From Wenzhouxiangella sp. (lineage in GTDB: Bacteria; Pseudomonadota; Gammaproteobacteria; Xanthomonadales; Wenzhouxiangellaceae): 49,558 bases of DNA. This document shows, in pieces, positions 4,180 to 30,500 of this stretch. A program made the translations under genes and the position numbers. Under the pieces are notes generated by a model. It was not told where the DNA came from, made no database searches, and saw nothing but the letters and a program-made list of their open reading frames with translations. How positions within the stretch are numbered: the first letter of the stretch is position 1; each line of letters begins with the position of its first letter. The stretch lies in contig SLQY01000263.1 in assembly GCA_007131235.1 (NCBI GenBank), positions 1 to 49,558 on the forward strand. The letters run 5' to 3'.

Positions 4180-5097
4180 ATGAATGAAATGAATAACCAA
4201 GACGCCAGCCTCGGCCCCCTGATGATCGGGATTTCTTCCCGAGCACTGTTCGATCTCGACGCCAGTCACAAGGTGTTCGAGGAGGGTGGGCTGGAGGCCT
4301 ACATGGACTACCAGCGCCAGCGCGAAGACGAGGTGCTGCAGCCCGGTGTGGCCTACAACCTGGCCCAGAAGCTGCTGGCGCTCAACAACGACGGCATGGA
4401 TCACCCCGGTGTTGAAGTCATCCTGATGTCACGCAACAGCGCCGACACGGGCCTGCGGATATTCAATTCGATCGAGCATTACGGGCTGGACGTGCAGCGT
4501 GCCGTTTTCACCAATGGTGCCAGTCCCTCGCAGTACATTGAACCGGCCGGGGTTCAGCTGTTTCTGTCGGCCAATGATGATGATGTGCGCCGGGTGCTGA
4601 TGGCAGGTTATGCCGCGGCAACGATCCTGCCGTCGGCGACCCGCGAAAACCGATCGGGGCAGCTGCGCCTGGCTTTTGATGGTGATGCCGTGATTTTTTC
4701 CGACGAGGCCGAGAGAGTCTACAAGGAACAAGGTTTGGCTGCCTTCTCCGACAGCGAGAAAAAGTCGGCTTCCCGGCCTTTGGCAGCCGGCCCGTTCAAG
4801 CGTGTGCTCGAAGGCATCCAACGCATTCAATCTGCCTACCCGCTGGAAGAAAACCCGATTCGCACTGCGCTGATCACGGCTCGCTCTGCGCCTGCCCACA
4901 AGCGGGTTATTCTGACGCTCAGGGCCTGGGGCATCCGGGTTGACGAAGCGCTGTTTCTCGGCGGGCGCAGCAAGGCACCATTCCTGCGCGCCTTTGGTGC
5001 CGATATCTTCTTCGATGATCAGCAGATGCACTGTTCGACGGCCAGCCAGGAAGTGGCGACCGGCCATGTGCCGCACGGGGTGGCGAATGAGCGGTGA
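4180..5097 (+). CDS. Cytosolic 5'-nucleotidase family protein (NT5C1-like)
   Basis: IGISSRALFDLDASHKVFEEGGLEAYMDYQRQREDEVLQPGVAYNLAQKLL and FFDDQQMHC resemble the 5'-nucleotidase family (PF06189-like). ORF track starts at 4156 (TTG inside the repeat); ATG at 4180 is preferred. Confidence 0.85.
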   Translation: MNEMNNQDASLGPLMIGISSRALFDLDASHKVFEEGGLEAYMDYQRQREDEVLQPGVAYNLAQKLLALNNDGMDHPGVEVILMSRNSADTGLRIFNSIEHYGLDVQRAVFTNGASPSQYIEPAGVQLFLSANDDDVRRVLMAGYAAATILPSATRENRSGQLRLAFDGDAVIFSDEAERVYKEQGLAAFSDSEKKSASRPLAAGPFKRVLEGIQRIQSAYPLEENPIRTALITARSAPAHKRVILTLRAWGIRVDEALFLGGRSKAPFLRAFGADIFFDDQQMHCSTASQEVATGHVPHGVANER

Positions 5098-5117
5098 GAG
5101 GGAAGAGGGAAGAGGAT
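5098..5117. repeat. Short purine tandem repeat (AGAGGGA units)
   Basis: GAGAGGGAAGAGGGAAGAGGATG immediately after the 5'-nucleotidase stop codon. Confidence 0.7.
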
Positions 5118-5197
5118 GCTGGGGAGCGAGCGGGTTGGTTTTGTTTCTTGTTGGTCGACTAAAATTCAAGTGATAACGTGATGGAAAACGCAAGCAT

Positions 5198-8100
5198 ATG
5201 AAAAATAAAGGTATCGGGGTAGTCTCTCTGCTTTTTGCGCTGGCTCTTGCATGCGCGTCCGCTCTGGCCGATGAACAAGCGGAAGCGGGCAATGGCAACG
5301 ATGAAAGCGCAGACAATGGTGACTGGTCGGTGCTGGAACCGCCGGGTGAGTGGCAGTCGGTCAGTATCGATACGCGCTCCTTTACCTGGTCGGATGTCGA
5401 TGTCAGTCCGGATGGCCAGACCCTGATCTTCCACACCCTGGGTGACATCTACCGTGTCTCCATTGACGGCGGCGAGGCCGAGGCGCTGACCGATGATATC
5501 GCCTGGAATTTCCAGCCCCGCTTCAGCCCGGACGGGCGCCATATCGCGTTCATTTCTGATCGTGCCGGGGCCGAGAATATCTGGATCATGGACGCTGACG
5601 GCAACCACCTGGTCCAGGTCAGCGACGAGCGCGAGCACCTGCTGCACAATCCGGCCTGGTCGCCGGATGGTGACTACATCGCCGCGCGCAAGGGCTATGT
5701 GTCGCGCAGGTCCATTCCGGCCGGCTCGATCTGGATGTACCACCGCGGTGGTGGCGGCGGCGTTGAGCTGGTCGAACGTCTGCATGGTCAGCAGTCGCAG
5801 AAAAACATTGCCGAGCCGTACTTTTCACCGGACGGTGAGTACCTGTATTTCAGCCAGGACGTCACCTCGGGCTCGGTCTGGGAGTACAACCGCGACGCCA
5901 ACCGCGGTATCTTCGCGGTGCGCCGCCTGAATCTGAATACTGGCCAGACCGATACCGTGGCCGGTGGCCCCGGCGGTGCCATCCGACCGGTACTGTCGCC
6001 GGACGGCAAGCAGCTGGCCTTTGTGCGCCGCAACCCCACCGAGCTGTCGTCGCGGCTGATGGTGCGCGATTTGCAGTCAGGCATCGAGCGCACCCTGTTT
6101 GAAGGACTGGATCGCGACAAGCAAGAGACCTCGGGAGACATGGGCAATTACCCGGCGTTTGCCTGGCACCCGGAGGGCCAGGCGATCGTGATCTGGGCCC
6201 AGGGTGGTTTCCATCGTGTCGGCCTGGATGGTTCGCACCGGGAAATTCCGGTGCATGTGCGTGCCGAGAAACAGGTGCATCCGGCGCTCAGACGACAGAT
6301 CGAGGTCGCGCCGGATACGTTCCCGGTGCGCATGGCGCGCTGGACCCAGCAGAGCCCGGATGGCCGCCATGCCATTTACCAGGCCCTGGGCTATCTGTGG
6401 CTGCATGATCTTGAGCGCGACAGCCACCGTCGCCTGACCAGCCAGACCGAACATTGGGAGTTCTACCCCAGCTTCTCACCGGACAGCCGCTGGGTGGTCT
6501 ACACCACTTTCGAAGACGAGGCGCTTGGGTCGGTCCGCATCCATCCTGTGGGTCGCGGACGTGGCCGCGTGCTGAGCACCGAGCCGGGTTACTACCTGGA
6601 GCCGTCGTTCTCGCCCGATGCTCGCCAGGTCGTCTACCGGCGCACCAGCGGCGGCTTCCTGTCCTCGCCGGCCTGGTCTGATCGCACCGGCCTGTATCGC
6701 GTCGCCGTCGACGGCGGCGAGCCCGTTCTGATTACCGAGCGCGGTGCCAGCCCGCAGTTTACCGGTGATGGCCAGCGCATCCTGTTCAGCCAGCGCGATG
6801 GCAACCAGCTGTTGCTCAACAGCGTCAATCTTGACGGACACGATCAGCGCGAGCACCTGGTGGGCGACTGGATTACCGAGTACAAGCTCTCTCCGGACGG
6901 TCGCTGGGTGGCCTTTACCGAGCACTACAACGCCTATGTCGCGCCGTTTTTTGCCGCCGGCAAGCCGGTCAGCCTGGGCGCCAACAGCCGCGCTTTCCCG
7001 GTCCGCCAGGTCTCGGCGCGGGCCGGTGACAATCTGCATTTCACGGCCGACAGCCAGACTCTGGCCTGGTCACACGGGGCCACCTTGTACACGCGTTCGC
7101 TCAGCGATGCCTTTGCCTTTCTCGACGGCGCACCGGATGAACTGCCGGAGCCCGTGACGGAAGGCCGCAACCTGTCCATCGAGCTTGAGTCGGATCGGCA
7201 TGATGGTCGTATTGCCCTGGTCGGTGCTCGCGTCGTGACCATGCGCAACGCCGCCGAGGAACAGGAAGTGATCGAAAACGGTGTGATCCTGGTGGAGGGC
7301 CACCGCATTGTCGCGGTGGGTGCCACAGACCAGGTCGAGATTCCGTCGGGTTATCGCCAGTTCGACCTGGCGGGCAAGACCGTGCTGCCCGGCCTGGTCG
7401 ACGCCCATGCTCATGGGCCGATGAGCAATCAGCAATTGCAGCCGCAGCAGAACTGGGCCCAGATTGCCAACCTGGCCTTCGGTGTGACCACGGTCCACGA
7501 CCCGTCCAACGACAATGCCGGGATCTTCTCCATGGCCGAGCTGCAGCGTGCCGGCAAGGTCCTGGCCCCGCGCATCTTTTCCACCGGCCGGATTCTCTAT
7601 GGCGCGATCTTCCCGGGTGTGACCGCGCAGATCAACAGCTACGACGATGCCGAGTTCCATGTCCGGCGCCAGATGGAGCTGGGCGCGATCTCGGTCAAGA
7701 GCTACAACTACCTGCGCCGCGATCAGCGCCAACAGGTGCTGGAGGCGGGGCGCAAGCTCGACGTGATGGTGGTGCCCGAGGGGGGTATGCGCCTGGAGCA
7801 GAACCTGAACCAGATTGTCGACGGCCACACCGGCATCGAGCACAGCCTGTCGATTCATACCGCCTACGATGACCTGAAGCAGCTTTGGAGCCAGACCGAG
7901 GTGGTCTGGTCGCCGACCTATGGAGTGGCCTACGGCGGCATGATGGGAGAGGAGTACTGGTATGACCGCACCGAGGTTTGGAAAAACGAGCGTCTGCTCA
8001 ATTTCGTGCCGCGTTCGGTCGTCTTTCCGCGCTCCATCCGCCGACCGACCGCCCCGGACGAGCTCTACAACCATATCGCCGTGGCCGAAATGACCAAGCA

Positions 8101-26555: not shown

Positions 26556-28346
26556 TTACTCGGATCCGTCCTTGTCAGGATCTTCGCGTCGACGGCGACT
26601 CGATGCCTTGTTCGCGCTCGCATCGTTTGATCTTGACGGCTTTGCCGCATCGGATGTTTTCTTGTTGCCGCCATTATCCGCCGCGCTCCTGGTCTTGGCC
26701 TGGCCCTGGCCGTTTCCGCCGACCATGCCGCTGAGATCGGCCAGGTCGCCCAGTCCGACTTCGCTGAGCAGGGAGTCGACCAGCGGACGCTGGGCCCGGT
26801 AGCGCAAGGCCTGATCGACAACCGAGCGGGCCAGATTGCCATCGCCGCCTGAACCGCTGCCGCCGTCATCGCCACCCGAACTGTGCTGGTTCATGCCACG
26901 CACATCGATGATCTTGATGCCGTCGATACGCTCCATCGGCTTGACCGACTGTTCGATGATGGCCGGCAGATTCTTGAGCATCTCCAGTCGAATCTCCAGG
27001 GCGATCTGGTCGGGACTGAGTGCGTTGCGGGCCTCGTTGATGGCGCGCTGGCCTTCTGCTTCGACCCGGTAGCGTTCTTCATCAGCCTGGGCGCGGATGC
27101 GAACGGCATCGGCTTCACCGGTAGCCGCTACGCGCATCGCTTCGGCCCGGTCGTCCGCGGCCTGCTTCTCGGCTTCGGCAGCGACGGTCAGCTTGATGGC
27201 ATCCTTTTCGGCATCCTCGCGAGCCTGGACCAGTCGAACCTGGCGAGCACGTTCGGCCGATGCGGTTTCGCGCACGGTCTTGACTTCTTCTTCGGCGCTG
27301 ACTGCCTTGGCTCGGGCCAGGTCGGCCTCGGCACGGGCCGCGGACTCCTCGCGCGACTTCTCGGAAACGGCAATTTCACGTTCCTGTTCGGCGATTCGCA
27401 CCATCCGCTCGCGCTCGATCTGGCGTTGTTCGATCTGGCGTTGCTGCTCGATCTCGGCTTCACGAATGGAGCGATCGGCCTCGATCGTCGCTTCTTCGGC
27501 CTCCCGGCGACGTTCGGCTTCCTGGCGGGCGATGTTGGAACGGGTCTCGGCCGCTCGAACCTTGACCTCCTGGTCGCGGGACAACTGGGCGTACTCGTTG
27601 TCACGGTTGATCTGCAGCGACTTCTGCTTGGTTTCCAGGTCCTTCAGCTCGATCTGGATCTTGGTGTCGCGCTCGATGTCGTTACGTTCCTTGCGCCGAC
27701 GTTCGATCTCCTGGGTCAGCTTGGTCAGACCCTGGGCGTCAAAGGCATTTTGCGGGTTGAAAAAGTCCGAAGGGGTCTGGTCAAGACCGGTCAGCGAGAC
27801 CGATTCCAGCTCCAGACCATTCTTGTGCAGATCTTCGGCAACGGCAACCTGGACTTTCTGGGCAAAGTCGACCCGGTTCTCATGCAGCTCCTCCATGCTC
27901 ATGCCGGCGGCCACGGCGCGCAACGCATCGACGAACTTGCCTTCGACCAGTTCCTTCAGCAGGGTGGGCTCCATGGTCCGTCGGCCCAGGGTCTGGGCTG
28001 CAGTGGAAATGGCCTCGGCATCCGGTTTGACCCGGACGTAGAACTCGGCCTGGACATCGACGCGCATCCGGTCTCGGGTAATCAGCGCGCCTTCGCGCTG
28101 CCGCACGACCTCGAGCTTGAGGGTGTTCATGTTGACCGGGATGATGTCGTGCAGCACTGGCAGCACCAGTGCGCCGCCATCACGAACTACCTTTTCACCG
28201 CCCATGCCAGTGCGCACAAAGGCGACCTCCTTACTGGCCCGGTTGTACAGACGGGCAAAGATCAGCCCAAGCAGGAACAGTCCGCCGAGAACAACGATTA
28301 CGGGCACGGCCAGTGCCGTGAGATTCAGATCCATTACTGTATTCAC
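26556..28346 (-). CDS. Flotillin/SPFH-family protein (YqiK-like)
   Basis: N-terminal TM, band-7 domain (EVAFVRTGMGGEKVVRDGGALVLPVLHDIIPVNMNTLKLEV), long E/A/R-rich coiled coil, C-terminal Gly/Ser-rich tail. Confidence 0.92.
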   Translation of the reverse strand: MNTVMDLNLTALAVPVIVVLGGLFLLGLIFARLYNRASKEVAFVRTGMGGEKVVRDGGALVLPVLHDIIPVNMNTLKLEVVRQREGALITRDRMRVDVQAEFYVRVKPDAEAISTAAQTLGRRTMEPTLLKELVEGKFVDALRAVAAGMSMEELHENRVDFAQKVQVAVAEDLHKNGLELESVSLTGLDQTPSDFFNPQNAFDAQGLTKLTQEIERRRKERNDIERDTKIQIELKDLETKQKSLQINRDNEYAQLSRDQEVKVRAAETRSNIARQEAERRREAEEATIEADRSIREAEIEQQRQIEQRQIERERMVRIAEQEREIAVSEKSREESAARAEADLARAKAVSAEEEVKTVRETASAERARQVRLVQAREDAEKDAIKLTVAAEAEKQAADDRAEAMRVAATGEADAVRIRAQADEERYRVEAEGQRAINEARNALSPDQIALEIRLEMLKNLPAIIEQSVKPMERIDGIKIIDVRGMNQHSSGGDDGGSGSGGDGNLARSVVDQALRYRAQRPLVDSLLSEVGLGDLADLSGMVGGNGQGQAKTRSAADNGGNKKTSDAAKPSRSNDASANKASSRRRREDPDKDGSE

Positions 28347-28420
28347 TCCCTAAGGTTGGTTGATATCAGGCTGATCAGCGTGCAAGCCACTCGGATGCAG
28401 CCAATGCTAGTCAATCGGTT

Positions 28421-29146
28421 TCAGCGCTCATTCTCCGCCACCAGGGCGGCGTTGGGGTTGGGTATCGCGGTGAAGCGACCGTTGATTCTTCGAACCAGGA
28501 GAACCAGGCTGCCCCGTTCCAGCACCTGGTCATCTTCCTCCGGCTCCACCATGACATAGTGCGTTGTTCGGAAGCGGTCGGCCAGGCGTGCCTGGGCAGG
28601 CAGATCGCGCCGGGCGTTGCCACCAACAATCACCGCGGTCTTGCCAATGAAGGTGGCGGTGCTGACTGCGCTGGTTTCTTCCTTTGGCAACACTCGGGCC
28701 AGGGCACCGGTGCACCAGCGCACCAGTGGCAGGGTCAGGAAAAACACCGCGGGTGCGGCAACAACGCCTGGTGCTGCCATGCCAACGGTCTGCCGCAATA
28801 TCGACTGGCCGATCAGGCCGCACAGGCCGAATATCATCAGGAAGATGACCAGTACCATCAGCACGGGTACCTTGCCGATATACAGCCACGCCAGCACGCG
28901 GCCGATCATGCTGCCGTCCGGCGAGCCGCTGCCCTCCAGCCCGCTGGTCGTATCGCCGGTGGTCAGGTCGCCGAAATCGATGATGTCGTCGGGCATGTCA
29001 ACGCTGGAAATGACAAAGTCATCGACAACGTCGTTGACACCCAGCCCATTGAACAGGGCCACGATTTCGAAAACGAACAGTCCGGCCATGACCAGCAGCG
29101 CTGCCGTGAAGGGCAGGCTGCCGGGGGCCAGGAAGTACTCGATCAC
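28421..29146 (-). CDS. YqiJ/OB-fold-like membrane protein
   Basis: MIEYFLAPGSLPFTAALLVMAGLFVFEIVALFNGLGVNDVVDD, several TMs, C-terminal OB-like GKTAVIVGGNARRDLPAQARLADRFRTTHYVMVEPEEDDQVLERGSLVLLV; adjacent to flotillin. Confidence 0.85.
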   Translation of the reverse strand: MIEYFLAPGSLPFTAALLVMAGLFVFEIVALFNGLGVNDVVDDFVISSVDMPDDIIDFGDLTTGDTTSGLEGSGSPDGSMIGRVLAWLYIGKVPVLMVLVIFLMIFGLCGLIGQSILRQTVGMAAPGVVAAPAVFFLTLPLVRWCTGALARVLPKEETSAVSTATFIGKTAVIVGGNARRDLPAQARLADRFRTTHYVMVEPEEDDQVLERGSLVLLVRRINGRFTAIPNPNAALVAENER

Positions 29147-29817
29147 GAGTCGTCGGACTTGAGTCGGGCCAGCCGCTCCTGAATGCGGTTCTTGCGGGCC
29201 AGTTCTTCGAGCTCGGCGAGCTTGGACTCCTCGCTGGTGCTGGCGCCGCTGGCACCGGCAAGCCCGGTCTGGCGACTGAAGACACGGTCAAAAGCCGCCG
29301 TGGCCCGCTCGGCGCGATGGTCGGCGCCTGCAGATCCGGTGCCATCACCCTGGCCGGCACTCTGGCTGGCCTGGCGCTGAGATTGGCGGAAGCTGTCCAG
29401 GGCTTCACGCATCTCCCGCTTCTTGGCCTTGAGTGCATTGATGTAGCCTTCCAGGCGCGCTTTCTCATCGGCGAGGTCGGCGAGGCGAGATTCCAACACC
29501 GGAATCTGCGCTTCCAGGTCAATCTGGCGAGAAACCGCGGTTTCGGCCAGGTCGTCACGACCTTCCTGCATGGCCAGTCGGGCCTGGTCCGACAGCTCAT
29601 CGTGGCGCTTGTTGTCCTCGGCCAGGCGCTTGGCGGTCAGGTGACGCTGTGCTTCGACGACCCCAAGCTCCTTGCGTACCTCGGCGGTGGCGGTATCCAC
29701 TTCCCGGATGGCCTGTTCCATCACGGCCTCGGGTGCCGCGTTCTCCACCGCGTCGACCAGGGCATTGAAGCCCCCGGCGACCAGCCGTCCAACGCGCTGT
29801 TTCAAAGATTCACTCAT
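29143..29817 (-). CDS. PspA/IM30 family protein
   Basis: RVGRLVAGGFNALVDAVENAAPEAVMEQAIREVDTATAEVRKELGVVEAQRHL... DLEAQIPVLESRLADLADEKARLEGYINALKAKKREM. Confidence 0.92.
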   Translation of the reverse strand: MSESLKQRVGRLVAGGFNALVDAVENAAPEAVMEQAIREVDTATAEVRKELGVVEAQRHLTAKRLAEDNKRHDELSDQARLAMQEGRDDLAETAVSRQIDLEAQIPVLESRLADLADEKARLEGYINALKAKKREMREALDSFRQSQRQASQSAGQGDGTGSAGADHRAERATAAFDRVFSRQTGLAGASGASTSEESKLAELEELARKNRIQERLARLKSDDS

Positions 29818-29935
29818 GTCGTGCTCCTCCAGTTGAATGCCAGTATTCGTTGGGTCCCTTGCTTACGCCAGGACTGAAATCTGTTGATACGGGCCAGCTG
29901 ACACCGGTCAAGCCGCTGTCGCCTGCGAGCGGGTG

Positions 29936-30430
29936 TCAGTCATCGTCCCCCGACACGCTTTTTACCTCAAAACCGGCCCTGCTGGCCAGTGCCTTGGGTC
30001 GATAACAGCCGCGAAAGCCTCCTTGCCCAAGCTGCCGGATCGACTCGCTCAGGCTGAAGCTGCGCTCAGCCAGCCCGGATTCCAGGCGCTGAAGGCTGGC
30101 GCGCACGTCCTGCTCTGTGTCTTGACCGCGACAGGCCGACAGCGCAAAGGCGGTGATATCCGGCAACCAGGCCATGACCCGGTGAACCAGCTCGGAGCGC
30201 AGCCCATGTGCCATCTCCGCGGCGTGGATTTGACGATCAACCCGGGCAAACAGGCGACGGGCGAAATCGTGCGCCGCGGCAGGATCTTCCATCCCCTCGC
30301 GCTGGGCGCGGGCCTCATTGATCAAGGTGCGGATTTTTTCACTCAGGTTCGCCGCGCCGCTGATTTCAACCTGGCTCAGGAAAGTCAGGTCATCTTCGTC
30401 GAGCCTGAGGGTAACGGTCTGCTTGGGCAA
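29936..30430 (-). CDS. Ribbon-helix-helix-like N-terminus + ~110-aa C-terminal region; putative regulator of the pspA/flotillin operon
   Basis: MPKQTVTLRLDEDDLTFLSQVEISGAANLSEKIRTLINEARAQ fits an RHH fold (beta strand TVTLRLDEDD + two helices); TTG start; first gene of the operon. Confidence 0.7.
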   Translation of the reverse strand: MPKQTVTLRLDEDDLTFLSQVEISGAANLSEKIRTLINEARAQREGMEDPAAAHDFARRLFARVDRQIHAAEMAHGLRSELVHRVMAWLPDITAFALSACRGQDTEQDVRASLQRLESGLAERSFSLSESIRQLGQGGFRGCYRPKALASRAGFEVKSVSGDDD

Positions 30431-30460
30431 CGTCGCGGTTTCCGTGTGATGCGAAAACTG

Positions 30461-30500
30461 AGTTTAGCACAAAAAAATACAAACGCAATACGAATGTATT
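30461..30500 (-). promoter_or_regulatory. Candidate promoter/operator of the RHH-pspA-yqiJ-flotillin operon
   Basis: Minus strand: TTGCGT-16 nt-TGC-extended TAAACT (plus 30461-30488). Half-sites AATAC at 30476-30480 and 30487-30491 and inverted GTATT at 30496-30500. Confidence 0.5.

Follow-up and report, generated by a model that had tools for sequence, protein, structure and literature searches.

What controls a membrane-repair operon of the PspA–YqiJ–flotillin type, and is the controlling protein encoded by the small gene at its head? The question is raised by a stretch of 49,558 nucleotides (contig SLQY01000263.1, here called the window) from the 3.3-Mb draft genome of a Wenzhouxiangella sp., to which all genome-wide operator counts given below for the host refer. 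Four closely spaced genes, all in the same direction on the minus strand, occupy positions 26556–30430 of the window. In 5'-to-3' order, they encode a 164-residue regulator with a ribbon-helix-helix (RHH) domain, a PspA paralogue, a YqiJ-type protein and a flotillin. A preliminary description of the DNA had pointed out these four tightly packed genes, and all four open reading frames are indeed present. It had also proposed that the first gene product represses its own operon, by a logic unlike that of sigma54 and PspF. The comparative evidence presented here strengthens that observation, and from it we infer a function: with a probability of roughly three in four, the regulator is a dedicated autorepressor of the PspA–YqiJ–flotillin operon, which binds as side-by-side RHH dimers to a tandem operator, blocks a sigma70-type promoter and is released by an envelope signal. 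A regulator family with a conserved operator offers a direct handle on the control of PspA–flotillin operons beyond the PspF and Lia models.

Linkage of the Regulator Gene to the Operon

Among 61 genomes, made up of the host's own and those of its relatives, the RHH gene was found in 15. In all 15, it lies directly before pspA-yqiJ-flotillin or, in three cases, before yqiJ-flotillin without pspA, and all 14 of the relatives that hold the gene have yqiJ or flotillin beside it. These 15 genomes fall entirely within the 21 that encode a YqiJ OB domain (P = 8e-10). The same association was seen in a phylum-wide sample, where the gene was present in 6 of 398 genomes, all six among the 50 with YqiJ (P = 3e-6). 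Of the 44 homologues found when 84,980 species genomes were scanned, 39 have pspA as the next gene and two have yqiJ, so that 41 head the operon, although in a few of these the contig ends before flotillin; the other three are orphans. The linked homologues belong to the Gamma-, Alpha- and Zetaproteobacteria, Azospira, Desulfobacterota, Verrucomicrobia and Bdellovibrionales. Among cultured bacteria, the gene is carried, for example, by Azospira, Roseibium, Dyella and Arenimonas. Conservation of the neighbourhood, which the preliminary description had set as a check on its proposal, thus extends over several phyla. The position of the regulator gene at the head of the operon argues for autoregulation.

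The orphan branch consists of Pleionea-like gammaproteobacteria (loci L052, L053 and L058, at approximately 4980–5519 in each), in which the RHH gene sits between osmC-like and coq7-like genes. The tandem operator described in the next section is kept in this branch, in genomes that lack any flotillin domain. As the RHH gene is retained in these genomes, flotillin is not its universal partner. Its retention in operons without pspA shows that pspA need not belong to the operon either.

This distribution bears on a reading that is compatible with autorepression, in which the C-terminal domain of the regulator binds a partner and is titrated by PspA, free PspA either relieving or enforcing repression, as in the PspA–PspF pair of E. 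coli. Among the sampled YqiJ loci with a fetched neighbourhood, pspA stood beside yqiJ only where the RHH gene was also present, and the RHH gene adjoins pspA in 39 of the 44 loci. Furthermore, the genomes without pspA at the RHH locus, both those of the orphan branch and those with RHH-yqiJ-flotillin, all have PspA homologues elsewhere. Titration, and with it the suggestion in the preliminary description that the C-terminal region could bind PspA, is weakened, however, by the three relatives with no pspA at the RHH-yqiJ-flotillin locus, and by the orphan branch, which lies outside any psp operon. Nor did the pairwise identities of the RHH proteins correlate better with those of PspA (0.62) than with those of YqiJ (0.66) or flotillin (0.61). 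Binding of PspA by the regulator is not required by these comparisons, and we consider titration rather unlikely.

A Conserved Tandem Operator at the Promoter

The DNA upstream of the regulator gene in the window contains a predicted operator, TACATTCGTATTGCGTTTGTA, with two CRWWYG hexamers in tandem. It is the sole site in the host genome that matches the tandem pattern with zero mismatches; there was no second such site in that genome to suggest a wider regulon. When the distances between hexamers were counted upstream of the RHH genes, the spacing peaked at 11 bp in Wenzhouxiangella and its near relatives (6 pairs, 0.04 expected) and at 10 bp in the remaining members (19 pairs, 0.15 expected), where a further peak appeared at 20. 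Motif discovery in 40 upstream regions from outside Wenzhouxiangella gave TGTATtCATTTGTATACA, an 18-bp near-palindrome. A strict hexamer pair was present in 22 of 48 RHH upstream regions, compared to 2 of 109 segments upstream of the operons' other genes, none of 30 regions upstream of yqiJ at loci that lack the regulator, and 28 of 2569 background tiles (P = 1e-27). In 12 other genomes, the operator pattern matched at one or a few places each, mostly only at the RHH gene. In two genomes, second operator-like sites were observed away from the RHH gene, at G806:C32:816590-816607 and G805:C24:39340-39357, and are possible markers of additional regulon members.

The palindromic or tandem layout with a spacing of one helical turn is that of an RHH-type operator. 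Several of the RHH autoregulators of the NikR, MetJ, CopG and Arc kind have operators in which the sites are arranged in tandem or in pairs, with a spacing of about one turn. The dimers of these proteins reach into the major groove with a ribbon of two strands, and their binding to neighbouring sites is cooperative. The arrangement of the hexamers agrees with this mode of binding.

A sigma70-like promoter overlaps the operator in 14 of the 22 strict cases, and this overlap argues for repression. In the group to which the window belongs, an extended −10 of the form TGnTAnnnT, read by eye, follows the operator. The sigma70-like promoter named in the preliminary description stands only in part: a simple sigma70 consensus scan did not detect a promoter in the window, but the extended −10 beside the operator is common to its relatives. 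A sigma54 −24/−12 site was found neither in the window nor above chance overall, and sigma54 control was rejected on this basis. There is no pspF, pspB or pspC in the operon, which thus lacks the PspF/sigma54 control of a classical Psp system. Synteny, the cross-phylum operator and the lack of a sigma54 site together lend good support to the earlier idea that the RHH protein may repress its own operon by a different logic.

The placement of the operator also decides how much weight to give to the possibility that the RHH protein activates the operon, or both activates and represses it, and that its binding under stress brings RNA polymerase to a weak promoter. Such a role would suit the poor −35 and extended −10 in the window and its near relatives, as well as the location of the operator, which in this group coincides with the −35 region or immediately precedes it. 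In other phyla (for instance at L028, L032, L051, L053 and L058), however, the operator is placed as that of a repressor would be: it lies in the spacer of good promoters of the TTGACA-17-TATAcT type and extends over their −10. Activation is accordingly improbable.

That the RHH gene stands beside the operon by chance, as a passenger of the antitoxin or mobile-element kind, is hardly credible, and this reading was rejected because both synteny and the operator are conserved. Antitoxins often contain RHH domains and the distribution is patchy (15/61 relatives and 6/398 genomes of the phylum sample), but the linkage is near-perfect over several phyla, there is no toxin partner, the operator is conserved at one promoter, and neither a plasmid match nor a viral match was obtained. 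A defence system was likewise rejected, as PADLOC has no family for the RHH protein, YqiJ or flotillin, and PspA gave just weak coiled-coil matches.

Predicted Structure of the Regulator Protein

No Pfam or NCBIfam model covers the regulator family, and the single-sequence matches of the regulator, to DUF6290 and NikR, were marginal and fell below the Pfam and NCBIfam cut-offs. Support for an RHH N-terminus comes from profiles and predicted models. In a profile comparison, family residues 4–44 aligned with an RHH_1 profile, consisting of 15 distinct RHH sequences from related genomes and the N-terminal segment of NikR, with a probability of 89%, while 30 column-shuffled controls reached at most 5.8%. 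The C-terminal part of the regulator gave no match to the same profile. When a 15-member profile of the family was used, the best sequence match in the PDB was NikR (E = 0.019). Two AlphaFold models of the monomer (pLDDT 84 and 89) showed residues 1–11 in an extended conformation, followed by helices at 12–20 and 29–48. The strand-helix-helix pattern and the RHH-type profile together place the N-terminus in the RHH family, as the preliminary description had supposed. Four N-terminal residues are invariant among 47 members: R9 in the strand, and S30, K32 and R34 where the second RHH helix begins. In the Wenzhouxiangella group, the N-terminus is two residues shorter (MPKQT--VTLRL). Together with the shift in operator spacing from 10 to 11 bp, this shortening points to a possible co-evolution of protein and operator.

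The C-terminal domain is all-helical in the AlphaFold models, with helices at 50–75, 80–99, 106–136 and 145–152, and contains two further residues that are invariant in the 47 members, S79 and E117. Nothing significant was retrieved for this domain by Foldseek with the two models against the PDB or against viral models. The Pfam and NCBIfam matches of family members were scattered, each confined to one or a few members, and yield no name for the domain. The region of about 110 residues after the RHH domain, described earlier as unrecognised, thus has no match among solved structures. Set beside the CesT/Tir-like chaperones that are linked to pspA in other operons, the regulator gave no match to a CesT/Tir model in Pfam, and its C-terminal domain is all-helical. 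The C-terminal domain is likely to be the site of signal input, and candidate signals are PspA, the YqiJ–flotillin complex, lipid or a small molecule.

Proposed Mechanism

The gene order, the protein families, the RHH homology, the conserved operator and the uniqueness of that operator in the host genome were computed. From these we infer repression, as opposed to activation, along with the stoichiometry of the dimers, the nature of the signal and the role of the C-terminal domain. The N-terminal RHH domain would dimerise, and the tandem CRWWYG operator would take up two, or sometimes three, dimers as neighbours spaced by one helical turn. Likely contacts to the DNA are Arg9 of the DNA-facing strand and, where the second helix begins, Ser30, Lys32 and Arg34. 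While bound, the dimers would obstruct RNA polymerase at the sigma70-type promoter that overlaps the operator, until a membrane or envelope signal is taken up by the C-terminal four-helix domain and the operator is released. Regulator, PspA, YqiJ and flotillin would then be made together, and the effectors would presumably act as an inner-membrane remodelling and scaffold complex, in which flotillin and YqiJ form a platform to which PspA is recruited. In a bolder version, which we put forward tentatively and with some doubt, the helical domain would sense the state of the membrane directly, through lipid, PspA or flotillin assembly, and the RHH repressor would gate the module through its dedicated tandem operator, as a hitherto undescribed class of envelope-stress circuit shared between phyla.

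Several observations weigh against autorepression by an RHH protein. The strict hexamer pair is found in fewer than half of the RHH upstream regions, and a few loci (L033, L040 and L049) have no clear operator, perhaps due to wrong start calls. The TGTATtCATTTGTATACA motif derived from other phyla scores poorly in the Wenzhouxiangella group, because the spacing in this group is off by 1 bp (11 instead of 10 bp); as the motif did not transfer cleanly, the analysis turned to the statistics of the spacing. In the window itself, the promoter matches the consensus poorly. The homology to RHH proteins is weak when judged from single sequences, and a profile made from all 47 members of the family did not retrieve NikR.

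Comparison with Known Systems

Operons that combine PspA with YqiJ/YuaF and flotillin are described in main-text passages of Ravi et al. (2024; PMC11237479), where a role in membrane dynamics is proposed, and in those of Popp et al. (2022; PMC9239133), band 7/FloT and NfeD proteins are placed beside PspA. The claim in the preliminary description that the association of PspA with flotillin and YqiJ had been noted before is thus correct for the operon. The window shares with the operons in the former passages the same three effector genes in one operon. In the class described there, a CesT/Tir-like chaperone is linked to pspA, and an AAA+ ATPase may be present. The same source mentions one RHH factor, encoded at the end of another kind of PspA operon, the spermine-synthase type. 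An RHH regulator or operator for pspA-yqiJ-flotillin is not found in the main-text passages of either paper, although their supplementary tables may list the family without comment. Within these bounds, the regulator family and its operator appear to be undescribed, whereas the type of operon is already known.

The Psp system of E. coli (PspF, sigma54, PspABCD) resembles the present operon in having a PspA-family effector for envelope stress, but differs in its control, which here would consist of an RHH regulator and a sigma70-type promoter, with no PspF, PspB or PspC at the locus and no sigma54 site. The likeness to NikR, MetJ, CopG and Arc lies in the RHH domain, which is N-terminal, and NikR is likewise fused to a C-terminal input domain. 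Unlike the ACT-like nickel domain of NikR, however, the C-terminal domain is all-helical, and the target is a membrane-repair operon.

For the action of PspA, YqiJ and flotillin, the best model is pspA-ydjGHI of B. subtilis, where PspA is brought to the membrane by an SPFH protein and its membrane partners (PMC8581546), although the membrane partners and the regulation are different and the operon as described includes no RHH protein. The E. coli yqiJ-yqiK operon, of the SPFH2/NfeD2 type, has the same pair of YqiJ and flotillin but no pspA, and the paper that describes it makes no mention of PspA (PMC2636767).

With the operator in hand, an operator–reporter fusion could reveal the inducing stress, and deletion of the repressor could switch the module on. 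An unnamed protein family also gains a testable function in several phyla.

Effector Genes and Layout of the Locus

The features of the locus are listed in Table 1. The PspA_IM30 domain covers residues 7–222 of the 224-residue PspA paralogue (Pfam, E = 5.9e-20), which makes it a member of the PspA/IM30 family. It is nevertheless divergent and not a classical PspA, scoring 45 bits against the 243-bit cut-off of NCBIfam TIGR02977, the classical PspA equivalog. The YqiJ protein matched YqiJ_N (E = 7e-28) and YqiJ_OB (E = 1e-24), and the flotillin matched Band_7 (E = 1e-19) and Flot (E = 9e-44), all in Pfam. The flotillin gene directly follows the YqiJ gene, the arrangement of an SPFH2 flotillin with an NfeD2/YqiJ partner. 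The assignments of all three effectors in the preliminary description are confirmed by these matches.

Table 1. Genes and predicted control elements of the operon, by position in the window.
Feature	Position	Strand	Remarks
RHH + helical-domain regulator, 164 aa	29936..30430	−	TTG start; RHH ~4–48, helical C-terminal domain ~50–152
PspA/IM30 paralogue, 224 aa, ESCRT-III-like membrane remodelling protein	29143..29817	−	Pfam PF04012, 72 bits
YqiJ-type (NfeD2-like) membrane protein, 241 aa	28421..29146	−	C-terminal OB fold; GTG start; PF21001 + PF07290
Flotillin (SPFH/Band 7 + Flot domain), ~592 aa	26556..28334	−	PF01145 + PF15975; start read from sequence
Tandem operator TACATTCGTATTGCGTTTGTA	30478..30498	−	two CRWWYG hexamers, 30496-30491 and 30485-30480, 11 bp apart; predicted
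Weak −35 TTGCGT	30488-30483	−	within operator
Probable extended −10 TGCTAAACT	30461..30469	−	TGnTAnnnT at same place in nearest relatives, read by eye

The relatives have GTG or ATG at the place of the regulator start codon. The yqiJ gene overlaps pspA by 4 nt. For flotillin, ATG 28334 is the more likely start, since GTG 28346 overlaps a Shine-Dalgarno-like AGGGAG (28331–28352 region).

The host encodes a second, more classical PspA, followed by a gene with a PspC domain, on another contig (C309, locus L090, 4481–5800). Two sister Wenzhouxiangella genomes (G018 and G007; loci L091 and L092) carry another YqiJ/NfeD–flotillin operon, without pspA or the RHH gene, which continues with further predicted proteins.

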